DNA of 23,988 nt from IMG/VR virus record IMGVR_UViG_3300028388_002332, positions 1 through 23,988 of that record; one strand, written 5' to 3'. Origin of the DNA: a virus. Shown in pieces: positions 7,844-20,801 of this stretch (positions are counted from its first letter, which is position 1; each line of letters opens with the position of its first letter). A model generated the notes under the pieces. The model was not told the DNA's origin. It did not search any database and worked only from the letters and a program-made list of their open reading frames with translations. A program made the translations under genes and the position numbers.

Positions 7844-8968
7844 TTATTCAAATTCTATACCCTTCTGTTTTACTTCTTCTAACAAGTCTTTATACCAATT
7901 AGTTACATCTCCATCAGGATTATATTCTCTATATTCTTTTAAGAAAAAGTTAACTAATGAATCCCAAGAACTTCCTAATTTGTAAACATCTGGAGTACCA
8001 GCTTTGGAATGCCAAATATATTGATTATCTCTGTGAGCAATTACATTTGTGTTTATTGCTTGTTGACAGAGATACATTATATCTAACTTTTCATTTCCTT
8101 CTCTAGTTTCCATTAATTTAACTGTACTCATAAATTTTCTAATATTATCCATTTGATGTCTACCATCAGAGATAAAATCAGATAAAATATTATTGACAGT
8201 ATCAGGATTAACTTTACCTTTTAATATTACTCTAGATTCATAGTCTCTAAGAACAATAGCTATTTGATAAGACTTAAATCTACCATATTCATTTTTAATC
8301 TTATACAGATAATAGAATGCTTCTTCTATTTTTTCTTGCTTCTTAGCCTTTTCAGCTTCAGCTTCGTGTTCTTGAGAAATATACCAATCATGATAAGCAG
8401 TATTTATTTCTGCTTTATTTTTAGCTATAATAGGAATAACATAAGCCATTTCCATTAAAAGGTCTTGTCTAGGAGTAGTATTTTCTAAAGGATTAGGTCT
8501 TGGGTAAAGTGTCATTGTTAATGACTGTAGATAAGTCTTTTTACCCCACTCATCCATGTTAGAAGGCATATTAAACATAGTATAGTCTATTTTATCTGTA
8601 TAATAATCTGGTTCTACACTATGTCTAATTTCGTAAAGGGTTTGTTTTTTAATTTGTTCCTTCTTAATAATAGAAGGTAAAATATCTCTCCATTGTGGAG
8701 AAAGTTTAAAATTGACAAATATATCATCTTCATTCAATCCTTGAAAAGGATTTTCAACTAATTTATTAAGACCTGTCTCAAGTCTTCCTGTATTAGGGTT
8801 TAATGGAAAACTAAGTACATCGGCTGTACTATCTTCTTTAGCCTTTCTTTTAGATACAGTAGGAATTATACCTCTATCTGTACTAATTGTATATACTTGT
8901 TTGTGTCTTCCTTGATAAGATACTCTTTCTACAGGATTAATCCATATTTTTCTGTAATTGCTTTTCAT
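7844..8968 (-). CDS. Unknown 374-residue protein of the neck/tail module
   Basis: I do not recognise a family. The protein is mainly helical after residue 150. A charged heptad-like segment (HEAEAEKAKKQEKIEEAF near 200-217) is followed by further helices, and the C-terminus is acidic. The first 90 residues are basic and Pro/Asn-rich, as in an extended arm. There is no signal peptide or membrane segment. The start overlaps the end of the upstream lipoprotein gene by 32 nt and the stop is two bases before the next ATG, so it is embedded in the late operon. A structural or assembly role is likely from context only. Confidence 0.7.
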   Translation of the reverse strand: MKSNYRKIWINPVERVSYQGRHKQVYTISTDRGIIPTVSKRKAKEDSTADVLSFPLNPNTGRLETGLNKLVENPFQGLNEDDIFVNFKLSPQWRDILPSIIKKEQIKKQTLYEIRHSVEPDYYTDKIDYTMFNMPSNMDEWGKKTYLQSLTMTLYPRPNPLENTTPRQDLLMEMAYVIPIIAKNKAEINTAYHDWYISQEHEAEAEKAKKQEKIEEAFYYLYKIKNEYGRFKSYQIAIVLRDYESRVILKGKVNPDTVNNILSDFISDGRHQMDNIRKFMSTVKLMETREGNEKLDIMYLCQQAINTNVIAHRDNQYIWHSKAGTPDVYKLGSSWDSLVNFFLKEYREYNPDGDVTNWYKDLLEEVKQKGIEFE

Positions 8969-9746
8969 GCTGTTTTAAATATTTTTCAATTATTTTAGCA
9001 GTAATTTTACCAAAATCTTTTCTTGATTTATAGTTTTTTCTTATGTAATAAGGTAATTCTAATTGAATTACTACTACATTATCAAATTTACTATATTTTT
9101 CTGTTATGTAACCACCATTAAAATAAGGATAAGGTGGTATTGGATTTTTAGGAGAAGGAGCTACATTATAATATTTATCATAATGAGCACCCAAACTATA
9201 TTCTCCACGTATTAATGATTCATTACACTTACCAATAATATTCTGAACAGAACTATTTAATTGATTAATGTTAACTTTGTAATCATTTCTTTCTATATCA
9301 TAACCCAGCTCTATAAATTCATGAGAATGAGCTTGACCATGTATATCTAAGATTAATATTAAAGATTCATCTTTTTCAGTATCAATAGCTTTTTTTATAA
9401 AATTATGAAACACTCTGTAATATAATTTGCAAGACTCATCTGCACAAGCAACATATTCTTCTCTATTAGGGTCTAATTCAGACCTATCAAGATAATTAAC
9501 TATCATGTGAGGTGTTCCCCATTTTATATATTTAGCTATTTGATTGGCAACATCAATTGTATTTAAATCAGTAACACAAGTATATTTATTACAATCTCTA
9601 TCTGTTATAGAAGAAGACTCAATAACCCCGCCATGAGAGACTGTAAGTATAACAGGAATATCTCCCTGATAATAATTAATAAAACTTTGTGATCTACATC
9701 CAAATAATAACAGAAACAGTATAATAAAAATTATTAACTTTTTCAT
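8937..9746 (-). CDS. Lipoprotein with N-formylglutamate amidohydrolase-like domain
   Basis: The gene encodes 269 residues. Residues 1-16 form a lipoprotein signal with lipobox LLFG followed by Cys17, so after export the protein would be lipid-anchored, probably in the outer membrane. The rest resembles the N-formylglutamate amidohydrolase (FGase) branch of zinc exopeptidase-like hydrolases: PVILTVSHGG at 31-40 (a PHSG-like motif), LDRSELDPNRE near 86-96, LILDIHGQAHSH at 130-142 (a DxHG metal-site motif), and a late VVIQLELP strand. Extra Cys residues (52, 57, 101, 106) could form disulfides outside the cytoplasm. The substrate may be a peptidoglycan or polymer amide bond. It lies between the capsid gene and neck genes. 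Lysis, host-envelope remodelling or superinfection exclusion are candidate roles. The family call is by motif. Confidence 0.72.
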   Translation of the reverse strand: MKKLIIFIILFLLLFGCRSQSFINYYQGDIPVILTVSHGGVIESSSITDRDCNKYTCVTDLNTIDVANQIAKYIKWGTPHMIVNYLDRSELDPNREEYVACADESCKLYYRVFHNFIKKAIDTEKDESLILILDIHGQAHSHEFIELGYDIERNDYKVNINQLNSSVQNIIGKCNESLIRGEYSLGAHYDKYYNVAPSPKNPIPPYPYFNGGYITEKYSKFDNVVVIQLELPYYIRKNYKSRKDFGKITAKIIEKYLKQHEKQLQKNMD

Positions 9747-9831: not shown

Positions 9832-11442
9832 TTATACAACGCTAAAAGGAGTATACTCGATACGTCCTACGCGAGTTACATCCCATACACAGAGTCCACC
9901 AGAAGTTTCACGGTAAACGCCGAGTTCTTTGTTGTTAGAATATGCGTTAGAACCATCTTTGATAGCACCAGTTGCAAAATCATAAACATTAGATACTGTA
10001 AAGTAAGACTCTACACCATCCTGCATCACACAAGTAATGTTTTCAGGACGAGACGCATCAAATGCTTTTTGATCGGTAGCACCAAAGTCAAAAATGTCCA
10101 TTGCAAAAGATTCTACAGTGCGATTTGTTCCAGGAGCTTTTTCCGGGAAAAGTTTTCTATCATCCTTAATAGGATCGTAAGAAATTTCTAAGATATAACC
10201 CATTGGAAGCTTAATTTTCGTAAACTGGGCACCGTATTCCAATTCATTTTCATGGTATCCTTGAGGATCATTACGCTTAGTTGTAAACAGCGTATCAATG
10301 TACTGGAATTGAGATGCTTCTTGAGCAATCAGTCTGTGTAAAAATTCTACTCCACCTTCACCAGATGCAAGTACAATTCTACGATCAGCATGATCTCTAC
10401 GAGTTAAGAAAATTTCTGCAATGTATTCGTACAGTTCAGAAAGAGTTAGTGTGCCATTGTGACGCTTGAAATGACCATCTCTTACAATTTGTCTCCAGCC
10501 TGGAGCAACTTTACGAGTCATATTGCTTTCGCGATCAACTCCTTTTTCAAGATGACCAAATTCAAAATTCATTTCACGGTCACGCATCAATCTTTCTTCA
10601 AGTCTTGCTTCTATTTTAGAAACAAAAACACCTGCTTCAATTGTGCCAGCTTCACCAGCATCAAATGGCTGCTGGTAAACATAACCAACACCTACAGCAC
10701 CATCTTTATAAGTTTGACCTGCAATACTATAACCCATGTTACGAGGCATTGTACGACCCTCTTTACGAGCAGCAATTTCAGCACGAATGAATTTATCAGT
10801 AAATTCTGCTTTGCGAGCAAAATTACCAGTCCAAGACTGAAGCTTGAACATTTCACCATACTGGTCACCACCATACTTAGTGTTTAATTCATCAGAAACA
10901 GAAGTAGTAACATCAATAAATCTACGACCAGGCTTCAGGTAATCCACAGGGATATAAGCATTATGGTCAGAAGTTTGGAGTTCTACTTCATACTCCCAAG
11001 AGTTTACACTACGCTCAATAGGTTGTCCCAAAATTCTAATCAGAGGTAAGCTAGGAGCTTCGCTCTTAAGAATTACTGGCTCATGTAACCAAGGTCTGTC
11101 AAGTGCAATACGGAAAGGAATTTTTCCTTTACCGGGGTAAGAGTTAGTTGCTACAAGTAATTCAGTAGCTCTAAAGTCTACATCAGCATCAGCTACTAAG
11201 AACCATTCGTAATCATCTACTCCACCAGGAAGTGTATACGTATTACCTTTTGCAACAGTGTAATAAGTAAACTTCTTGTTAATCAGATGAGAACCAAGCT
11301 TAGAGCTGAATAATTGAGCAGCTTTTACGCCAAAGTTATACGGCTTGTATTTACGAAACATAGCAGTATGCGTTAGGAAGTCAAACTGACTACCACCCCA
11401 CGCATGTCTTTCTACAGTTTGTAAAGCTGTTTTTCTATTCAT
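9832..11442 (-). CDS. Probable major capsid protein
   Basis: The gene encodes 536 residues. It follows portal and scaffold-like genes, has higher GC than its neighbours, and is followed by two strong hairpins, all as expected for a highly expressed capsid gene. The N-terminal region is compact and hydrophobic without a signal. A central helical stretch (KIEARLEERLMRDREMNFEFGHLE near 280-303) and a later RRIVLASGEGGVEFLHRLI segment resemble the long spine-helix and P-domain layout of HK97-fold capsids, and the late YDPIKDDRKLF / ESFAMDIFDFG stretch recalls crAss-like capsid proteins. There is no protease site I can point to. The call rests on order, length and composition, with family similarity from memory. 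Confidence 0.78.
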   Translation of the reverse strand: MNRKTALQTVERHAWGGSQFDFLTHTAMFRKYKPYNFGVKAAQLFSSKLGSHLINKKFTYYTVAKGNTYTLPGGVDDYEWFLVADADVDFRATELLVATNSYPGKGKIPFRIALDRPWLHEPVILKSEAPSLPLIRILGQPIERSVNSWEYEVELQTSDHNAYIPVDYLKPGRRFIDVTTSVSDELNTKYGGDQYGEMFKLQSWTGNFARKAEFTDKFIRAEIAARKEGRTMPRNMGYSIAGQTYKDGAVGVGYVYQQPFDAGEAGTIEAGVFVSKIEARLEERLMRDREMNFEFGHLEKGVDRESNMTRKVAPGWRQIVRDGHFKRHNGTLTLSELYEYIAEIFLTRRDHADRRIVLASGEGGVEFLHRLIAQEASQFQYIDTLFTTKRNDPQGYHENELEYGAQFTKIKLPMGYILEISYDPIKDDRKLFPEKAPGTNRTVESFAMDIFDFGATDQKAFDASRPENITCVMQDGVESYFTVSNVYDFATGAIKDGSNAYSNNKELGVYRETSGGLCVWDVTRVGRIEYTPFSVV

Positions 11443-11471: not shown

Positions 11472-12539
11472 TTAAACTGGTGATATAGGCACCAAATCTT
11501 TAAACTTATCAGTGTTAGGATTAGATTGAACTTCTTTAGTCTTAGTAGATGTACTAAGCATTTCCTTCTTAATCTTATTTTCTAACCTGCTAGCTTCCTT
11601 ACTAGTGATTTGATTTATAAAATCATCGAAATCGAATTGTTGAGTCTTTTCGTTATAATATGTTGCGAGGTTTGCTAATTGAATTAGAGCCTTTGGGGAC
11701 TTTGCAGCTACGCTTAAAATTTTATTAGTTTGACCATTAACGAGATTATTTTTAATCTTATTAATTCTCGTAGATTTCCAATCTAAATTATTTAACTCTT
11801 GATTAATACTTTCAAACAATTGTTTTTGTTCTTGCTCCCTTTGACTAATTTCTTGTTTAGCGGAATCTAAATGCACTTTATGCTTTAAATTTTCTTTATC
11901 TTTTTCAGCTAATTTTTTTGCTTCTTCAAAAATTGCATTTTCAGATTCATCTTCTAAAGCATCAAGCATAACTGGAATTTGAGATTCTCTAATTCCCTGA
12001 GCTTTATATTTTTCAGTTAAAAAGTTTCTTGCTTGATCTATTTCTTTAAATTCATAATTTTTTTCAAGAGTATTTAAATCTTGAAGGTAATCATTAAAAA
12101 ATGTTTTTAAATCATCTTTACTTAAATCATTACCTTTAGTAAAAACATAATCAATCAAGTTTCTTCCAATTTCAGGACTTGATTGAATCATAGCAGTAGC
12201 TACTTGTTGAGGTAACTCTTCTTTATAAGAATTAATAGCTTGATTTACATCTTCCCAAGAGTATTCTTGTTTCTCATCATTTTTAGAAACAATACCTTGT
12301 TCTACTAATTCATTATAAAATATAGTTGATACTTCAACATCTTGTTTAGGCTCACCTTGTTTAGATTGAACTTGCGGTTCGGCAGGAGGATCATTTTCAT
12401 CAATCCTAGGTTCTTCCACTTTTGTTTCTGGTTCCTTTATTTCAGGCTCTTGAATAGGCTCATCTTTAACATCTTCAAAAGATGTATCAAATATGTCAGA
12501 ATCTAGTTGTGGAATTAAATTTTCAAATTTTTCATTCAT
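11472..12539 (-). CDS. Scaffolding-like protein
   Basis: The gene encodes 355 residues. Residues 1-70 are strongly acidic and rich in Pro and Glu (runs such as EPEIKEPETKVEEP), which suggests a disordered arm. Residues about 155-300 are charged and predicted to be long helices or coiled coil (EEAKKLAEKDKENLKHK, REQEQKQLFESINQELNN). The C-terminus is basic and ends with DLVPISPV. This acidic-then-coiled architecture, placed between portal and major capsid genes, is typical of phage scaffolds. No protease domain is visible. The role is inferred from architecture and position. Confidence 0.72.
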   Translation of the reverse strand: MNEKFENLIPQLDSDIFDTSFEDVKDEPIQEPEIKEPETKVEEPRIDENDPPAEPQVQSKQGEPKQDVEVSTIFYNELVEQGIVSKNDEKQEYSWEDVNQAINSYKEELPQQVATAMIQSSPEIGRNLIDYVFTKGNDLSKDDLKTFFNDYLQDLNTLEKNYEFKEIDQARNFLTEKYKAQGIRESQIPVMLDALEDESENAIFEEAKKLAEKDKENLKHKVHLDSAKQEISQREQEQKQLFESINQELNNLDWKSTRINKIKNNLVNGQTNKILSVAAKSPKALIQLANLATYYNEKTQQFDFDDFINQITSKEASRLENKIKKEMLSTSTKTKEVQSNPNTDKFKDLVPISPV

Positions 12540-12625: not shown

Positions 12626-15262
12626 TTAATTATTTTTAGATTGTTTTGCTTTTTGTTTAATTTCTTTCTCTTTTAACTTAAGCTGTTGCTTTTGTATATC
12701 TATTTTGGCATCACTTTCTTTAATACCTTGAATAGTTTTAGCAACTTCCAAGTAATCAGGAACATCTTCATTATCAGGATTAACTTGCATTTGAGCAGCT
12801 ATTTTTTCTAATTCTGTAATTCTTCTCTGTTGTTCTTTAATTACAGCTAAACTAATTTCATGTTCTTGATTATCTTCTCTATTCTCTTTTTCTCTAGCAA
12901 GATATTCTTCTTGAACTCTCAACTTACTTTCTTCTAATTCTTTCATTCTATCAATTTGCTTTTGAGCTTCCATCATAATTATCTTATGAGTTTCTTCAGG
13001 AGAAACACCAGAAGTAATAGCTTTAACTAATGAAGAAACAGCTTCCATGCCTTCACCAGCATTTTGACCAAATGAATGAGATAATTGCATCATCATTTCT
13101 TTATATCTTTCATCATTCATAGAATTAGTTACATAAATTCCTATATTTTGAGGCTCTAACATTCTAGGAGTAACTTTAAATAATTCTTCCGTACCATCAT
13201 CTAATACATAATGAAACATTGGAGATTCTCCTGTTTCTTCTAAAATATTAGCACAATAAGTTCTAAAGTTCTTTATATAGTCTTCTAAAACATCTTTCCA
13301 TACTTGTTTTAATGTATAAAAATAAGGTTCTGTAATGTGATGCGATTGAGTTATAGCTTGCTGATTATCTGATACATTTGAATTTTGTGTAAATTGAGAT
13401 AATCTTTGAGGACTAATTCCCATTGCCATACTAATCTCTATATCAATAAATTGAAGTACTTGTTGCAAATTATATATTTCTCCAGCAGTACCTAATATAT
13501 ATCCAGAACTACCAGGACTTCTTGTTGCAGGAGGCATGCCACCTATAGTACTTTCTGAACCTGAGTAGAAGTCTACACCTAATTGTTTTCTGTATAACAT
13601 CCATACTGCAATAGGATCACGAATAATTTCTCCATCAATATCTTTACCTAATTTATCAGGTATTTGATCTATATCAACAGATTGAATATATCCCTGATAT
13701 TTACTTAATTCTCTATTCTGTATGTGCTTTATATATAAATACTGGAAATAAGCAGGAATAGCTCTTTGAAGTAGAGATATAGACTTAGAGTTTCTAGCAG
13801 TAAATATACCGCCAAAAGTAGATAAATTAAAACTAGAATAAGGATTTTCTATATCAGTTGATTGATAAGGAACTTCTCTACAAATAGGATACACATCATT
13901 ACCTAATCTAATTACTTCATATTTACGAGGTATCCATAATTTTTCAAGAGTATATTCTGTACCACTAATAGGATCAACCCATACATATTTTTTACTCTTT
14001 TTACCCCATTTATTTGTGAATTTAATTTCCTGAGCTTCTTCAGGAATTTCAAAATCAGACGATAAAGGAAGTGTAATTCTTTCATTGTAATCATCTATAT
14101 AAGTTAAAAAGTTTAATTCTCTAAATGCTTTAAATTCAAAATGAGTTTCCCATATAAGTGTTTGTTTACTTCTACTATATCTATTAACTCCTTGACCTTG
14201 ATGCAAACCAGTTTGTTTATTTTCATATCCATCAATTGTATGGTCTGTAACTGATTTAAATACTTCTTCATTAAATGTATCTCGCATATATGTTTGATCG
14301 TGTGGCCCTAAAGCATGTCTTTTATCTATACGATAATTATCTTGTTGAGTATGAATCCCTAAACGTTCCATTTCATCTTGAGATAAAATATCACTATATT
14401 CATTATAAGCATCTACAACAGTTATAGGTTTTTTATACCATATATAATCTCCTTTATTAACCATTAACTGATTAGGAGCTTTTTGAAATCCTGTATATAA
14501 TGGATTCCTTATTTCTAGATATGGCTTACCAAATTTCCATCCAGAATAAATAAAACATCTATCAGCAATAGCTACATCTTCTAATGTTTCTACTTCTTTT
14601 TGTTTTACACTCTGATCGTGATAAGCATATTTCATTGATTTAGAATAAAATATTTCCCATTCTGATTGAAAGTTCTTTTGAAGTAAATCTTCAGGTGTTT
14701 TTTCACTTCTAACTCCTTCTATATATGCTTGCATCTCTTCTTGAGACATACCTTGCATCTGCATTTGTACTTTTTCTATTTCTAAAGCAACTTCTTCTTC
14801 TACACTTTTTTTAATAGCTTCGACAAGTCTTTTATTCTTGTCTTTTATAGCTTTCATAGAAAGAAGTACAATTTTAAAATTGTCATTTCTTTTAATAAGC
14901 TCCCCTTTTAAAACATTAATATTATTATGGAGTTTTGGGTAAGGCTGTACTTCTTCTTCTATATTTCCTATATTTTCTCCCAATCTATTACAAAATCTAT
15001 CTAATTCTTGTTTATAACCATCAAGATTATCATTATATATATCATAAGCTAGTTTCATTTCTTTATAATCATTGATTACGGAAGAATGGGCTGGGACAAC
15101 CCATTCCATATAATCTTTGAACCATTGACAATCATCTGTATATTTTTCTTTTTCAGAACATTTTAAATTGAATACAGGTTCATGTCTTTTCTTCTTTGAT
15201 TTATTTACATACTTATTATCTTTGTAATAAGTACTAATTGCTTCTTCTGAGTATTTTGGCAT
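12626..15262 (-). CDS. Portal protein (large)
   Basis: The gene encodes 878 residues, at the large end for portals. It lies after terminase and before scaffold and capsid genes. The N-terminal part is charged. The middle holds repetitive Tyr/Trp-rich strands. Around residue 610-650 comes GISPQRLSQFTQNS followed by QQAITQSHHITEPYF, which recalls portals of crAss-like phages. The last ~120 residues are almost all charged coiled coil (KENREDNQEHEISLAVIKEQ, ending KLKEKEIKQKAKQSKNN), matching the helical barrel/crown extension of long portals. It starts three bases after the chaperonin stop. The portal forms the DNA entry ring and docks terminase. The call rests on context, length and recalled motifs. 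Confidence 0.82.
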   Translation of the reverse strand: MPKYSEEAISTYYKDNKYVNKSKKKRHEPVFNLKCSEKEKYTDDCQWFKDYMEWVVPAHSSVINDYKEMKLAYDIYNDNLDGYKQELDRFCNRLGENIGNIEEEVQPYPKLHNNINVLKGELIKRNDNFKIVLLSMKAIKDKNKRLVEAIKKSVEEEVALEIEKVQMQMQGMSQEEMQAYIEGVRSEKTPEDLLQKNFQSEWEIFYSKSMKYAYHDQSVKQKEVETLEDVAIADRCFIYSGWKFGKPYLEIRNPLYTGFQKAPNQLMVNKGDYIWYKKPITVVDAYNEYSDILSQDEMERLGIHTQQDNYRIDKRHALGPHDQTYMRDTFNEEVFKSVTDHTIDGYENKQTGLHQGQGVNRYSRSKQTLIWETHFEFKAFRELNFLTYIDDYNERITLPLSSDFEIPEEAQEIKFTNKWGKKSKKYVWVDPISGTEYTLEKLWIPRKYEVIRLGNDVYPICREVPYQSTDIENPYSSFNLSTFGGIFTARNSKSISLLQRAIPAYFQYLYIKHIQNRELSKYQGYIQSVDIDQIPDKLGKDIDGEIIRDPIAVWMLYRKQLGVDFYSGSESTIGGMPPATRSPGSSGYILGTAGEIYNLQQVLQFIDIEISMAMGISPQRLSQFTQNSNVSDNQQAITQSHHITEPYFYTLKQVWKDVLEDYIKNFRTYCANILEETGESPMFHYVLDDGTEELFKVTPRMLEPQNIGIYVTNSMNDERYKEMMMQLSHSFGQNAGEGMEAVSSLVKAITSGVSPEETHKIIMMEAQKQIDRMKELEESKLRVQEEYLAREKENREDNQEHEISLAVIKEQQRRITELEKIAAQMQVNPDNEDVPDYLEVAKTIQGIKESDAKIDIQKQQLKLKEKEIKQKAKQSKNN

Positions 15263-15265
15263 TTA

Positions 15266-16750
15266 TTAAAACGGATTTTTTGTATACTCATTATACAAAG
15301 TATACGAAGTATTTATTAATAATTTAGTATTAGTAAAAGAATTCTTTAACGCAGATATAATTACTTCGGTTGGATCAATGATACCACTTTCTAAGAAATT
15401 TTCATATTGATGTGTTTTAACATTATATCCTTTTAAATCATTAACATCAATATTAACTTCTTCTACATTAGCATTCTTACAAATCTGAGCCATAGGTGTT
15501 AAAATAGAATTTTTAACTGGAGCATATAACTTTTCAGTTAATGCTATTTTTGTAAGAGATAATCCACCACCTAAAACATATCCACTTTCTATTGCTGTTC
15601 TTACAGCTCCGATAGAATCTTCTAATCTATCATATTCTTCTTTTTGAGCTATACTAGTTTTACCACCCGCATATATAATAGCACTAGCACCTTTTAATCT
15701 ATATATTCTTTCTTCATAATCTTTTGCATCATATTTATCTGTAGTTGATTCAATTAACTTTCTAAGTTGTTCCACTCTTTTTTCTACAAGCGGAGTATCT
15801 GCATTATATAATACAAATTTATAAGAATCAATCATTATTTTATCTACATAACCTTCTTCATTTAAAAAAGCGCGAATATCTTCAATATTCTTCTTTTGAC
15901 CATACCCATAACCAGGTATTTTAATTAAACACACTTGAGCACCTTGATTTACTTTATTCATGCTAAATGATCTCATAAAAGCATCAGAAAATCTAGGCGC
16001 AATTACAATTACAGGTATTTGTTCTTGTATTGATAAAGATAGTAATTTTTCATATTCAGGAGTTAATCTAGTCAAAGGTTCTGTACTAATATGAATATAT
16101 GCATCTTCATATATAGCCTGTTCTGTATCTTTATTAGTCATAAAAGACGAGTGGATATAACCGCTATCAAAGCTAATACCTTTAACTACTTCATAATATG
16201 TATAATCAAAGTTTTCACTTTTTTCTAAATAAAGGCGAGCATCTAAACCTGTTTGCTCATATATCTCTTTGAATAACTCACCTATTCTTTCAGAATTAGC
16301 AGAGACTTTAGTAATATTTTTAACATCATTAATACTTTCTATTTTTATAGTTTCTTCTCTAAGTTTTGAAATTACTTTAGCAACAGAATCTTCAACTTTA
16401 GATAATACTTGATTTATATCAGAATTTTTAGTTAAAGACTTTCTAACTTCTTTAACCATTGCTTGTAATAACAAAGAAGTTAAAGTAGTTCCATCACCAC
16501 ATTCTTCTACAGTTTTATTAGCAGCAGATATTAATATTTGTGCACCAACATTTTCTAAAGGGTCTTCCAAACTAATACTTTTAGCTACAGAGACTCCATC
16601 TTTAGTAAATCTAAGAGATTGTTGAGGATCATTAGTAGCTATAATAACTGTTTTACCTTGACCACCCATAGTAGACTTTACGGTATCAGCAGCTATATTT
16701 AATCCTCTAATTATTTTATCAAGTTTGTTTGTGTAATGCTTAGTTTTCAT
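15266..16750 (-). CDS. groEL-like: GroEL-type chaperonin
   Basis: The 494-residue product is recognisably a group I chaperonin. ATP-site residues are kept: TKDGVSVAK with Asp51, ECGDGTTLTS with Asp86, and RLEDSIGAVRTA with Asp378 (E. coli Asp52, Asp87, Asp398). GGG at 394-396 and the GIIDPTEVIISALKNS segment also match. Apical-domain hydrophobic positions appear at GISFDSGYIHSSF (191-203). The offset to E. coli grows from 1 to 20 residues between Asp86 and Asp378, so the apical part is shortened. The usual GGM-rich C-terminal tail is absent and the Pro33 loop is changed (STMGGQGKT). No GroES gene is in the window. It probably folds virion proteins. Phage chaperonins are known in large phages such as EL, OBP and AR9. 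Confidence 0.93.
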   Translation of the reverse strand: MKTKHYTNKLDKIIRGLNIAADTVKSTMGGQGKTVIIATNDPQQSLRFTKDGVSVAKSISLEDPLENVGAQILISAANKTVEECGDGTTLTSLLLQAMVKEVRKSLTKNSDINQVLSKVEDSVAKVISKLREETIKIESINDVKNITKVSANSERIGELFKEIYEQTGLDARLYLEKSENFDYTYYEVVKGISFDSGYIHSSFMTNKDTEQAIYEDAYIHISTEPLTRLTPEYEKLLSLSIQEQIPVIVIAPRFSDAFMRSFSMNKVNQGAQVCLIKIPGYGYGQKKNIEDIRAFLNEEGYVDKIMIDSYKFVLYNADTPLVEKRVEQLRKLIESTTDKYDAKDYEERIYRLKGASAIIYAGGKTSIAQKEEYDRLEDSIGAVRTAIESGYVLGGGLSLTKIALTEKLYAPVKNSILTPMAQICKNANVEEVNIDVNDLKGYNVKTHQYENFLESGIIDPTEVIISALKNSFTNTKLLINTSYTLYNEYTKNPF

Positions 16751-16776: not shown

Positions 16777-17460
16777 TTAATTTTCATTAGACCAAATTAT
16801 TGGATGTAAGTAATTAATTTTAAAATTTTCAACAGATTGAATTCCTTTAGATATAGAATATATTCTACCTTTATTATCTTGCAATGCAATAATTCCAAAT
16901 AGATTTTGTGGTGCAAATTTATCAAACTCTAATTCTAATCCTGCTAATATTCTAGGTCTTTTATCTTTTTTAGGTTGTGTAACCATAATAGGATCAGCAA
17001 TTATAGTTTTAACAGACGGTATAAATTCAGTGTTATATTTTTTAACTTCATGTAAAAAATCTACTTGATCTATAACTCCATTGTGATAAATATCAGTAGT
17101 TAATTTATAAGTAGAATCATTAAAATAATTAGTTAATCTATCTGTTTTAAAAGGAGCTTCAACACCTTTTATATGTTTTTTAAAATCATCTGTTTCTTTT
17201 TCTATTATCGTAGTATCTCTAATATATTTAATTCTTACTTTTTCTTTTTGCTTTACTGTCTTTAAAGAATCATATCTGTATTGTAAGTAAGATACTTCAG
17301 ACTTTAAAGAATCAATCTGTCTAACTTGTTTTGCAATAACATCTGCATAATAATCATAATCACATTCTTGTTCTTTTTTTCCACATTGTTGAAATAATAT
17401 GATAATAGCTAAAATAGCTATTACACCATATTGAATGTAACTTAGTAAATTATTTTTCAT
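16777..17460 (-). CDS. Membrane-anchored coiled-coil protein (possible spanin-like)
   Basis: An in-frame TTG at 17505 and an ATG at 17481 lie further up, but the ATG at 17460 overlaps the terminase stop as TAATG and is the better start, giving 227 residues. A short polar tail is followed by one hydrophobic segment (GVIAILAIIILF, near residues 12-23) and a CGKKEQECDYD stretch. Next comes a coiled coil (VRQIDSLKSEVSYLQYRYDSL), then a beta-rich C-terminal part. The N-in, single-pass layout with a periplasmic coiled coil resembles inner-membrane spanins or holin-associated proteins. I cannot show a partner outer-membrane spanin. The lipoprotein at 8937 is too large to be a typical one. Confidence 0.7.
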   Translation of the reverse strand: MKNNLLSYIQYGVIAILAIIILFQQCGKKEQECDYDYYADVIAKQVRQIDSLKSEVSYLQYRYDSLKTVKQKEKVRIKYIRDTTIIEKETDDFKKHIKGVEAPFKTDRLTNYFNDSTYKLTTDIYHNGVIDQVDFLHEVKKYNTEFIPSVKTIIADPIMVTQPKKDKRPRILAGLELEFDKFAPQNLFGIIALQDNKGRIYSISKGIQSVENFKINYLHPIIWSNEN

Positions 17461-19910
17461 TAATTCCAGTTTTTTGACCATCCTGGATTTGGAACTAATT
17501 CCCAAGGATTATACCAGCCAGGTTCATTTGATTCATCTTTTTCATGACTTAATTTTTCCACAAGATTTCTGTGTGGATCAGGATTTTTAAATATTCTAGG
17601 ATTTTGAGATAAGAACGTTAAAGGATTATGCTTATCTTTATTTTTAATTTCTTCCATTATATTTTTTTCTTCTTCCTTCATTCCTAATATAGCTCCTGCT
17701 AATGCCATAACAGCATCATAATTACCTTCTTTCATGTCAAAAGCTATAATCTGTCTAATTAAGAATATATCAGGAATACGTTCTATATTCCTTCTTGTTT
17801 CCTCACCTATTGTTGTTTCAGCTAATAACCATTCAGCTACTTTATCCATAAGTTCAGCTTTAGCTATATTATTACCAACCATGTAACCATATTGAGTAAT
17901 TTTTTTAGCATAAATGCCTGTATTATTTACATTTTGAGGACGAAAACAAAGTAAGTATTCTTTATCTCTATTTTTAAAATAGTTTTTACATTCATCACCT
18001 CTGTTAGCTTCAAACCATAATCCTCTTTTAGGATTACCATAAAAAGCTAATAACTTTTCTAAATTTGAGTAATATTCTTTTCTACCTCCTGGTGGTTTGC
18101 CAATATAAGATGCAACTATAGTATTACCAGAGTAACCATATAAAGTATATTTAGGATTCATTATAATATAGGTTGCACCTAAAGAATCTCCTTCATCAAT
18201 ATTATCTGATACATAAGGGTCATGTCCTACAAATTTATACATATCATCTGGAACTACACCATCTATTTCTTGAGGAAATTCATATATCATTATTGGCCCA
18301 TCTAAATCTTCTCTTTCATATCTATACTTATGTTCAAAGAAAGGTTTTTTAGATTTGTCTACTTCATAACCAACTCCTCTTGGAAAGTTAGAATCCCAAG
18401 ATAATTTAACAGGAGTATATATTTTTTCATATAACTTATTGTTCATTAACCCCTTTTCCCTCAACTGTGCTTCTGCTACAGGTAATATATTACCTTTATT
18501 AGATTGCCACATATCAGAAGGAATAAGTGGGCTATTCATTTTTTCATGAGCAAGTATTTGTGGATTATTAGCTTCTTCTGCTACTTCTCTTAATTTTTGA
18601 TAATAAGTTATAGCTTCTTCATAATTTGTATTACCATTTTCATCTTTAAAATCAGAAGCAGTCATATAAGCAGGTAAGAAAAATCCTATTTCTCCACTTT
18701 CTTCCCAATCATCATTAAATGTAACAAGATTGTATTGTTTGGGATGCATAAATATTTCTTTAGCAGGTATTATTGTTTCCATGTTTCCAGAAGTTCCAAG
18801 TGCTATTTGTACACCAAACTGACGAGAACCAACTCGTACTGTTGATTTATTAGAACCCCAAGCTTTAGTTAACAAACTAGTTAATCCTTGCTCTTCATAA
18901 ATTATATAATTATAACGTCCACCAGCAGCAGCTTGAGCACCATCTGGTTTATTGGGAGAGTAAACTACATGCGCAATATAAGAACCAGTACCTTCAGTAA
19001 TTTCTCTACCTTTATATATTGAAGTATATTCATGTCTCCAAAGATTTTTTTTGTTGTTAGGCCCAAGAGAACCTGCCATTTCTTTATAAAAAATATTTGG
19101 CTCGTAATCTTCATCACCAAATATTCCCCAAGCTCCAAGAGTTTTACTAACAGCTAACTCATTCATAGCATCTGAAATCTTTTTACAAAATTCAGATGAT
19201 TTGTTAACCTGTCCAGAACCTACACAAACTTCAGCTTTAGGTGGATTTTTTATTAAATCTTCTGTATAATATTTAGCGCCATCAAATACTATTGTATGTA
19301 AACAAACAGCAATTGCATAGAAGTAAGATTTACCTCCTCCACGTGCTCCAAGTTCACTAATATTTTTTGTAGGATTCCAATAAAGAGGAACCCCTTTCTC
19401 CTTCTCATGTATTTGTTTTATATTTTCTCTAGGAGATTTATATTTTTTTAATCTTCCTTCTTTATTAATTAAGGCTAAATATCTTTTTCTTTTATTTCTA
19501 GCCCATTTATTAAATGTAGAGGTAGAAGGTAACCCCTTTGTTTGAAGCTCTAAAACCCATTCATCAGATGTGAATTCATCATCATCAGACCATCCACTAA
19601 AACCTTCTGCTTCTAATACCATATAAGCTCTTTCCCATTCTATATCTCTTATTAAAGGTGTTATAGCTGTACGAGTATTCTGTTCTTCATCAACATCCAA
19701 AATTGTACCAAAGTTACCATAAAAAAATAACTTACCGGGCATATATCTAAATCCTCCAAACTCTCTACCCCACATTCCTTCAATACATCTAGTTTTAAGG
19801 TCTGCCCAGTAAGGTAAATATCTCGGATCATCAGGATGAAAATGCTTTATTTCATCAAGTAGAAATTGCTTTAGATTTTCTATTCTTATGTAATCTGTTT
19901 TGTATTTCAT
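17460..19910 (-). CDS. terL: Terminase large subunit (packaging ATPase and nuclease)
   Basis: The 816-residue protein drives DNA into the prohead and cuts concatemers. The ATPase motifs are clear: Walker A GARGGGKSY (188-196), Walker B YIIYEE (335-340) and coupling motif LGTSGN (371-376). The RNase H-like nuclease half shows FVGHDPYVSD (Asp564), LWFEANRGDE (Glu634) and EGNYDAVMALAGAI (Asp732), the usual acidic triad. The N-terminal ~180 residues, ahead of Walker A, are an extra domain relative to short terminases. No second in-frame Met occurs for 45 codons, so 19910 is the likely start. It overlaps the preceding gene by 56 nt. A separate small terminase subunit is not recognised. Confidence 0.93.
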   Translation of the reverse strand: MKYKTDYIRIENLKQFLLDEIKHFHPDDPRYLPYWADLKTRCIEGMWGREFGGFRYMPGKLFFYGNFGTILDVDEEQNTRTAITPLIRDIEWERAYMVLEAEGFSGWSDDDEFTSDEWVLELQTKGLPSTSTFNKWARNKRKRYLALINKEGRLKKYKSPRENIKQIHEKEKGVPLYWNPTKNISELGARGGGKSYFYAIAVCLHTIVFDGAKYYTEDLIKNPPKAEVCVGSGQVNKSSEFCKKISDAMNELAVSKTLGAWGIFGDEDYEPNIFYKEMAGSLGPNNKKNLWRHEYTSIYKGREITEGTGSYIAHVVYSPNKPDGAQAAAGGRYNYIIYEEQGLTSLLTKAWGSNKSTVRVGSRQFGVQIALGTSGNMETIIPAKEIFMHPKQYNLVTFNDDWEESGEIGFFLPAYMTASDFKDENGNTNYEEAITYYQKLREVAEEANNPQILAHEKMNSPLIPSDMWQSNKGNILPVAEAQLREKGLMNNKLYEKIYTPVKLSWDSNFPRGVGYEVDKSKKPFFEHKYRYEREDLDGPIMIYEFPQEIDGVVPDDMYKFVGHDPYVSDNIDEGDSLGATYIIMNPKYTLYGYSGNTIVASYIGKPPGGRKEYYSNLEKLLAFYGNPKRGLWFEANRGDECKNYFKNRDKEYLLCFRPQNVNNTGIYAKKITQYGYMVGNNIAKAELMDKVAEWLLAETTIGEETRRNIERIPDIFLIRQIIAFDMKEGNYDAVMALAGAILGMKEEEKNIMEEIKNKDKHNPLTFLSQNPRIFKNPDPHRNLVEKLSHEKDESNEPGWYNPWELVPNPGWSKNWN

Positions 19911-20241: not shown

Positions 20242-20400
20242 TTAATTAGCAAGCTCGTCTAAATCTTCATTTAATTCTAAATAGCACTGTTGGGCACTAC
20301 CTACAAACAAAGTTATGCAAAATAAATCAAACTCTTCTATAGGCACTACAAACCTTTTACCTGTTAAAAGATTCTTTTTGTACTTGTGTGTATTTTTCAT
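20242..20400 (-). CDS. Small 52-residue protein
   Basis: This short gene reads MKNTHKYKKNLLTGKRFVVP at its start and ends in an acidic tail (ELNEDLDELAN). It begins with an ATGA overlap with the upstream stop, which supports real translation. The middle is hydrophobic (FCITLFVG) but short for a transmembrane helix. Function is unknown. The same frame continues past its TAA into the next gene, so the pair may be one split ancestral gene. Confidence 0.55.
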   Translation of the reverse strand: MKNTHKYKKNLLTGKRFVVPIEEFDLFCITLFVGSAQQCYLELNEDLDELAN

Positions 20401-20801
20401 AATCCAAGTTGTTTAATCAAACGTTTAAGTTCCGACTTGTTTTTTACATACCCATTAAATATAGGGCTAGCATCTGTTTCTCCATACATCGTTACGCCTA
20501 CACCTTGATCTTCATTTCTCTTCTTATCATCAAAGTAAAGCTGAATCTCTCCATTTCCTTTATATGAGTGAAACCATTCATCAGGTTCATCATGTGATGA
20601 CTCAAATCCTAACTCTTTTACATCCTCTTGGTCTAAATACTTCACTCTAAACTCTGAGTTATATTCATCATAAGGAGGAAATACTTCCTTAGTACTTAAC
20701 ACTACTTTATTCCACTCTTTATTGCTTGAATCTGGATAACGCTCCTCGTATTCAAACCCTATGTGGAACTCTTCAGTATTTGGAGTGTAGTATTTATCCA
20801 T
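20397..20801 (-). CDS. Unknown 134-residue protein, phage type
   Basis: The product starts MDKYYTPNTEEFHIGFEYEE, contains FRVKYLDQEDVKELGFE and ends YVKNKSELKRLIKQLGL. From memory this layout recurs in small hypothetical proteins of Bacteroidetes phages and prophages, but no function is known to me. It is acidic, with beta-strand patterns and a C-terminal basic helix. It overlaps the next gene by 4 nt (ATGA). Its start immediately follows the preceding stop. Confidence 0.8.
   Translation of the reverse strand: MDKYYTPNTEEFHIGFEYEERYPDSSNKEWNKVVLSTKEVFPPYDEYNSEFRVKYLDQEDVKELGFESSHDEPDEWFHSYKGNGEIQLYFDDKKRNEDQGVGVTMYGETDASPIFNGYVKNKSELKRLIKQLGL

Follow-up and report, generated by a model that had tools for sequence, protein, structure and literature searches.

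Bacteriophage T4 supplies only a lid, gp31, and relies on host GroEL for the barrel, while phage lambda takes barrel and lid from the host. It is an open question what leads some phages to encode a chaperonin when most borrow that of the host. T4 gp31 and RB49 CocO are phage-encoded, GroES-like lids for capsid folding. The jumbo phages EL, OBP and AR9/PBS1 encode GroEL-like rings, and the EL, OBP and AR9 barrels have been reported to need no co-chaperonin (PMC9598537). The Flavobacterium phages elemo and immuto and Cellulophaga phage Calle_3 encode a phage GroEL with a recognisable phage GroES close to it, near replication or small genes; since these pairs are known, the GroEL-GroES combination as such is not new. 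Among Crassvirales-type phages, Cellulophaga phage phi14:2 and cr108_1 (Steigviridae) carry a GroEL of about 490 residues that lacks the Gly-Gly-Met (GGM) tail and is encoded about 8 to 11 genes upstream of the terminase large subunit (TerL) gene. Both also have a GroES-like gene just upstream of TerL, and the cr108_1 GroES-like protein is matched by PHROG 931, 'head morphogenesis'.

The window analyzed here is the whole of an IMG/VR record (IMGVR_UViG_3300028388_002332; 23,988 bases), a linear fragment of a crAss-like phage genome, in which an original prediction had placed a GroEL-type chaperonin between the terminase and portal genes. The protein (window GroEL) is similar in length to the Steigviridae GroELs and likewise has no GGM tail, but it is only 28-30% identical to them and its gene is found at a different place. 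As in T4, a putative GroES-like lid is encoded by relatives of the window, but the lineage has a barrel of its own too. By contrast to window GroEL, the jumbo-phage chaperonins form far more diverged branches and are not encoded in a crAss-type head operon, and the elemo, immuto and Calle_3 genes do not lie between TerL and portal.

Window GroEL is a group I chaperonin with an intact ATP site

The chaperonin gene is a minus-strand open reading frame at 15266..16750 that encodes 494 amino acids, and PHROG and Pfam searches agreed on its identity (E 1.2e-91 to PHROG 'chaperonin groEL'; 98 bits to Pfam Cpn60_TCP1, cut-off 34). An AlphaFold2 monomer model generated from 34 sequences had a pLDDT of 88.5 and matched GroEL/Hsp60 along its full length (Z 38.8 across 484 residues), with a best Foldseek E-value of 1.7e-39. 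Window GroEL was found to have the three-domain fold of the group I (GroEL/Hsp60) family, similar to bacterial GroEL and mitochondrial Hsp60, to which it is about 28-33% identical. The ATP-site residues noted in the original prediction were all located on the minus strand: Asp51 (E. coli D52; codon 16598..16600) in TKDGV, Asp86 (D87; 16493..16495) in GDGTT and Asp378 (D398, of ATP hydrolysis; 15617..15619) in RLEDS. The GGG motif and D495 are likewise present, and D52, D87, D398 and D495 are invariant in 12 of 12 aligned members of the lineage; in the GroEL of one relative (contig L013), GDATT replaces GDGTT. Window GroEL is very probably an active, ATP-driven chaperonin.

Window GroEL differs from bacterial GroEL in other respects, two of which had been anticipated and were borne out by alignment with the E. 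coli protein. The apical domain (residues ~190-356; 15683..16183, minus strand) has 167 residues compared to 186 in E. coli and is thus 19 residues shorter, with the gap opposite E. coli positions of about 297-316; the tail past E. coli position 526 is TKNPF, without the GGM repeat. Among the substrate- and GroES-holding residues of the apical groove, window GroEL retains Y199, F204, L237 and a hydrophobic residue at both 259 and 264, and has other residues in place of Y203, L234 and V263; it also lacks the R197-E386 salt bridge. With these three residues and the salt bridge lost, the classical mode of GroES docking may be changed.

Residues at ring-ring contact positions were also affected. 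E. coli position 430 is deleted in all aligned members and 434 nearly always, and positions 452, 461, 463 and 464 are mostly not kept (n=12); these are ring-ring contact positions of GroEL (SR1 mutant). Based on the loss of these residues, a single ring is possible for window GroEL. The deletion or change of contact positions in all members and the shortened apical domain could also be read to mean that the protein is independent of any co-chaperonin, its open barrel folding clients with no lid, as for OBP and AR9, whose chaperonins act as lid-less single rings (PMC9598537). We consider this unlikely, as the window sequence resembles ordinary GroEL more than the OBP or EL proteins, and relatives carry a GroES-like gene in this part of the genome (see below). 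Furthermore, the ring state is not readable from sequence, because the diverged chaperonin of phage EL still forms a double ring, which splits with ATP (PMC7185714).

Window GroEL is encoded in a crAss-type head module

The phage was assigned to Crassvirales by its crAss-type capsid, portal and TerL genes in conserved order, and the matches of its portal in a phage collection were mostly to crAss-like and related Bacteroidota phages. Every gene of the module is carried on the minus strand. The TerL gene (17460..19910, 816 aa; PHROG 6681, E 1.1e-62) is followed by a gene for a small membrane-anchored coiled-coil protein, spanin-like by eye (16777..17505; the true start is probably the ATG at 17460 or 17481), then by GroEL, by the portal gene (12626..15262, 878 aa; PHROG 6547 portal, E 3.4e-45), by a gene for an acidic structural-module protein at a position kept in relatives (11472..12539) and by the crAss-type major capsid protein gene (9832..11442; PF23898 Crass_capsid, E 6.9e-35; PHROG 11589). 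The portal start lies 3 bases past the GroEL stop, the same gap as originally predicted. The predicted location between terminase and portal was confirmed, with one correction: GroEL adjoins the portal gene but not TerL in this phage, the small membrane protein gene being in between.

Start sites in the module are A-rich and without clear Shine-Dalgarno sequences, as is usual in Bacteroidota, and a member of the Bacteroidota is the likely host. A promoter/terminator scan of the TerL-portal interval revealed no terminator on the coding strand, and promoter matches were near the shuffled mean.

Additional genes of the window were also compared to those of relatives. Beside the capsid gene, 8937-9746 encodes a lipoprotein-like protein with weak similarity to N-formylglutamate amidohydrolase (FGase; E 0.0015, below cut-off), and proteins that resemble it, as judged by eye, were found on the contigs L013, L123 and L126. 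A small protein of unknown function is encoded at 20397-20801, and the position of its gene is mobile: upstream of TerL in the window, in the TerL/GroEL interval in L007/L008, directly after GroEL in phi14:2, and adjoining the GroES-like gene in L127.

The location of GroEL between TerL and portal is a trait of the lineage

Relatives of the window were found by scans with TerL, portal and GroEL alignments and by tblastn on contigs. A scan of viral contigs with window GroEL as single protein found nothing, and TerL and alignment queries were needed. By this approach, TerL, GroEL and portal, in this order and with at most one small gene between TerL and GroEL, were detected in 12 contigs including the window (the others being L008, L013, L019, L021, L023, L122, L123, L126, L127, L128 and L129). 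Three further contigs are partial: L007 and L009 stop within GroEL or shortly past it (TerL-GroEL seen), and L018 starts inside GroEL (GroEL-portal seen). L007 and L008 are almost identical and represent one phage. The lineage GroELs are 40-64% identical to window GroEL. In the members measured, GroEL overlaps the portal gene or is at most 7 bases away, and in several it touches both TerL and portal. Overlaps of a few bases with TerL and/or portal were seen in several members. The small membrane protein of the window has a counterpart at the equivalent site in L013 (29% identity). In the portal tree, the window lineage formed its own branch next to Steigviridae, Suoliviridae and Flavobacterium phage Fpv1, sister to the known families. 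GroEL and portal identities were correlated (Mantel r 0.69, p 0.0008), as expected if both genes were inherited together.

One relative differed in this respect. In L022, the portal of which falls in the window-lineage clade, the matches to TerL and portal are only about 125 bases apart, with no GroEL in between. GroEL was lost, moved or never gained at this site, and the gene is thus dispensable or located elsewhere in at least one relative. For three additional GroEL contigs (L130-L132; 27-29% identity), the stretch examined contained no marker gene of those tested.

The fixed TerL-portal location and the overlapping genes of several members might be taken to indicate that the protein serves in structure or assembly at the packaging vertex, for instance as a chaperone for terminase or portal ring assembly, and not in general folding. 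This we regard as highly improbable, since the protein retains its ATP site and its full set of three domains, adjacency alone is no demonstration of such a role, and L022 is without GroEL at that place. The location had been described as unusual in the original prediction, which holds in comparison to other phages; within its own lineage, however, the position is fixed, and GroEL is also found in structural modules of some unrelated phages. In Vibrio phage SRILMA (L113) GroEL lies between tail sheath and tail tube, and in a Manatee Spring myovirus (L114) it is just upstream of terminase.

Intein-like and other inserts are present in relatives

In L128 (3214-5610), GroEL is interrupted by an intein-like insert of about 310 aa with a LAGLIDADG domain, located inside the ATP motif (GDG|TT); a literature search found no report of an intein in a chaperonin active site. 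Intein-like inserts at the Walker A motif of TerL were observed in L007 (3895-7356), L009 (399-3851), L023 (5143-8544) and L013 (5839-9238), at two different sites, before and within ARGGGKS; that of L013 splits TerL at the motif as an intron-like insert with a LAGLIDADG ORF. The capsid genes of L013 (16200-18991) and L123 (12436-15241) are each interrupted by an insert that contains a homing-endonuclease-like ORF. In the window, the capsid gene is uninterrupted and TerL has no intein-like insert.

Window GroEL is not a recently captured host gene

The best cellular match of window GroEL, among the best 80 bacterial loci, was 32-33% identical. In a maximum likelihood (ML) tree, seven lineage GroELs were monophyletic (support 100/100), their stem measured 2.47 changes per site, and this branch was outside all bacterial GroELs. 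Placement among the Bacteroidota GroELs was rejected by AU test (p=0.0008). A joint clade with the Steigviridae GroELs was borderline rejected (p 0.0475, with long branches), and the deep order of the tree is unsure due to these long branches. The lineage was also separate from the jumbo-phage chaperonins of OBP, phiRU/EL and PBS1, again on long branches. Thus, the phylogeny that the original prediction had called for did not place window GroEL in a recent host GroEL clade.

Captured GroELs do occur in phages: in the same tree, that of SJC03 was inside the Bacteroidota and those of Vibrio phages were next to E. coli, consistent with recent captures. For window GroEL, recent host capture is ruled out by the ML tree and AU test, and the probability that the gene is either such a capture or an assembly artefact is negligible, as the gene and its place recur in 14 other contigs from different samples and the lineage lies outside all bacterial GroELs. 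The data support window GroEL as a phage-specific chaperonin of non-recent origin that is encoded in a head-gene operon.

Relatives of the window encode a diverged GroES-like protein

No GroES-like gene was detected in the window with a GroES profile and Pfam Cpn10. The window extends 4.1 kb upstream of TerL, and L007 and L021, which extend 3.9 and 4.1 kb on that side, likewise showed no GroES-like gene. As the L123 lid gene is located about 4 kb upstream of TerL, the absence of a lid gene from the window says little, and that of the window phage would probably lie beyond the fragment end. A GroES-like gene was within reach upstream of TerL in six lineage members (L013, L019, L023, L122, L123 and L127), and all six encode a strongly diverged version, a protein of about 200 residues whose gene is a few genes upstream of TerL.

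The relationship of this protein to GroES was revealed by profile-profile comparison, in which the lineage family matched an 80-sequence GroES profile at 92-94% probability. Shorter GroES-like proteins of the GroEL-bearing cr108_1, phi14:2 and Dulem virus 41 and of the GroEL-less Suoliviridae cr50_1, cr53_1 and cr60_1 likewise gave about 94%. Each of the three GroES-like families was at about 94% (E about 1e-7), compared to less than 0.4% for 8 control families from the same phage operons. The L013 protein also matched the PHROG co-chaperonin GroES (5.8e-5), and the cr50_1, cr53_1 and cr60_1 proteins are labeled 'chaperonin' or 'putative chaperonin' in GenBank. When all ORFs of 22 loci were scored with a small GroES profile, most of the GroES-like proteins ranked directly after true GroES. 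With a larger profile, single-sequence scores were weak and two other ORFs of cr50_1/cr60_1 ranked among the GroES-like proteins; the GroES-like assignment is therefore carried by the profile-profile result. The six aligned lineage proteins have in common a Gly-hydrophobic triplet-Pro at the place of the mobile loop, KVG(D), and a YGY ending with DI, together with an N-terminal extension and an insert. An AlphaFold2 model, based on three sequences only, had a pLDDT of 34. Pfam Cpn10 (PF00166) gave nothing over cut-off in the window or in a whole 108.8-kb relative and 0 families for L122 and L123; this standard search alone would have led to a false 'no GroES'.

Nine crAss-like genomes with GroEL also have the lid, and among complete crAss-like genomes none was seen to carry GroEL alone. 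The suggestion that the chaperonin may be independent of GroES is thus unlikely for this lineage, given the GroES-like gene near TerL in relatives. Based on these comparisons, window GroEL would probably work together with a phage GroES-like lid in the window phage.

A PF00118 search of the whole genomes of cr50_1, cr53_1, cr60_1, cr273_1 and Fpv1 found no GroEL, and the presence of a GroES-like protein in the first three of these (Suoliviridae) suggests that a lid can be used with host GroEL. This finding, and the partial retention of the mobile-loop contact site in window GroEL, would fit a scheme in which the phage barrel acts with host GroES, or in rings mixed with host GroEL subunits, to retune the host machine, the GroES-like protein serving separately as a lid for host GroEL. 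We consider such a scheme quite improbable for the window lineage, in view of the co-occurrence of GroEL and lid in the nine genomes; mixed rings are also unlikely, as phage and cellular GroEL share only about 32% identity.

Discussion

The explanation that we favor, and consider reasonably likely, is a phage-owned chamber of GroEL and a GroES-like lid that folds virion proteins, encoded in part by an old lineage gene in the head operon. The ATP-driven group I chaperonin would be the phage lineage's own, acquired long ago and seated in the TerL-portal-capsid operon, where it would be expressed alongside the head genes. Phage GroEL would pair with the phage GroES-like lid to form the folding chamber, and its chief clients would be abundant or hard-to-fold virion proteins such as capsid, portal and tail, as for T4 gp31 with host GroEL but with the barrel also supplied by the phage. 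A dedicated role in the folding of virion proteins is plausible from the gene position and the T4 gp31 precedent; that GroEL and lid together enclose the virion proteins produced from this operon and fold them is, on balance, the slightly favored view.

A more far-reaching proposal is tentative, and we hold it with reserve. The lineage, an environmental crAss-like group at the level of a family, may have a self-contained, co-evolved chamber in which a diverged lid of 200 residues with an N-terminal extension and a single-ring barrel, encoded in the packaging operon, fold the phage's own capsid; at the same time, the lid may be an ancestral part of the Crassvirales toolkit that acts on host GroEL in other families.

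The fixed TerL-portal place of GroEL, the extent to which the lid has diverged and its distribution within Crassvirales appear to be new. A literature search found no paper linking crAss-like phages with a co-chaperonin and none on this operon, and the virioplankton chaperonin sequences of ISME J 2017 were outside the comparison.

A barrel locked between terminase and portal with a hidden lid gene provides a natural comparison with the lid-only Suoliviridae and with the barrel-less relative, and bears on the use of phage-encoded as opposed to host chaperonins. With such a lineage it could be tested whether a phage-specific chamber is required to fold crAss-type capsid proteins, and whether a lid can work with chaperonins of the single-ring type. 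If a phage-owned chamber is indeed formed, the window lineage would represent a further combination, in which a phage brings its own barrel and its own diverged lid.
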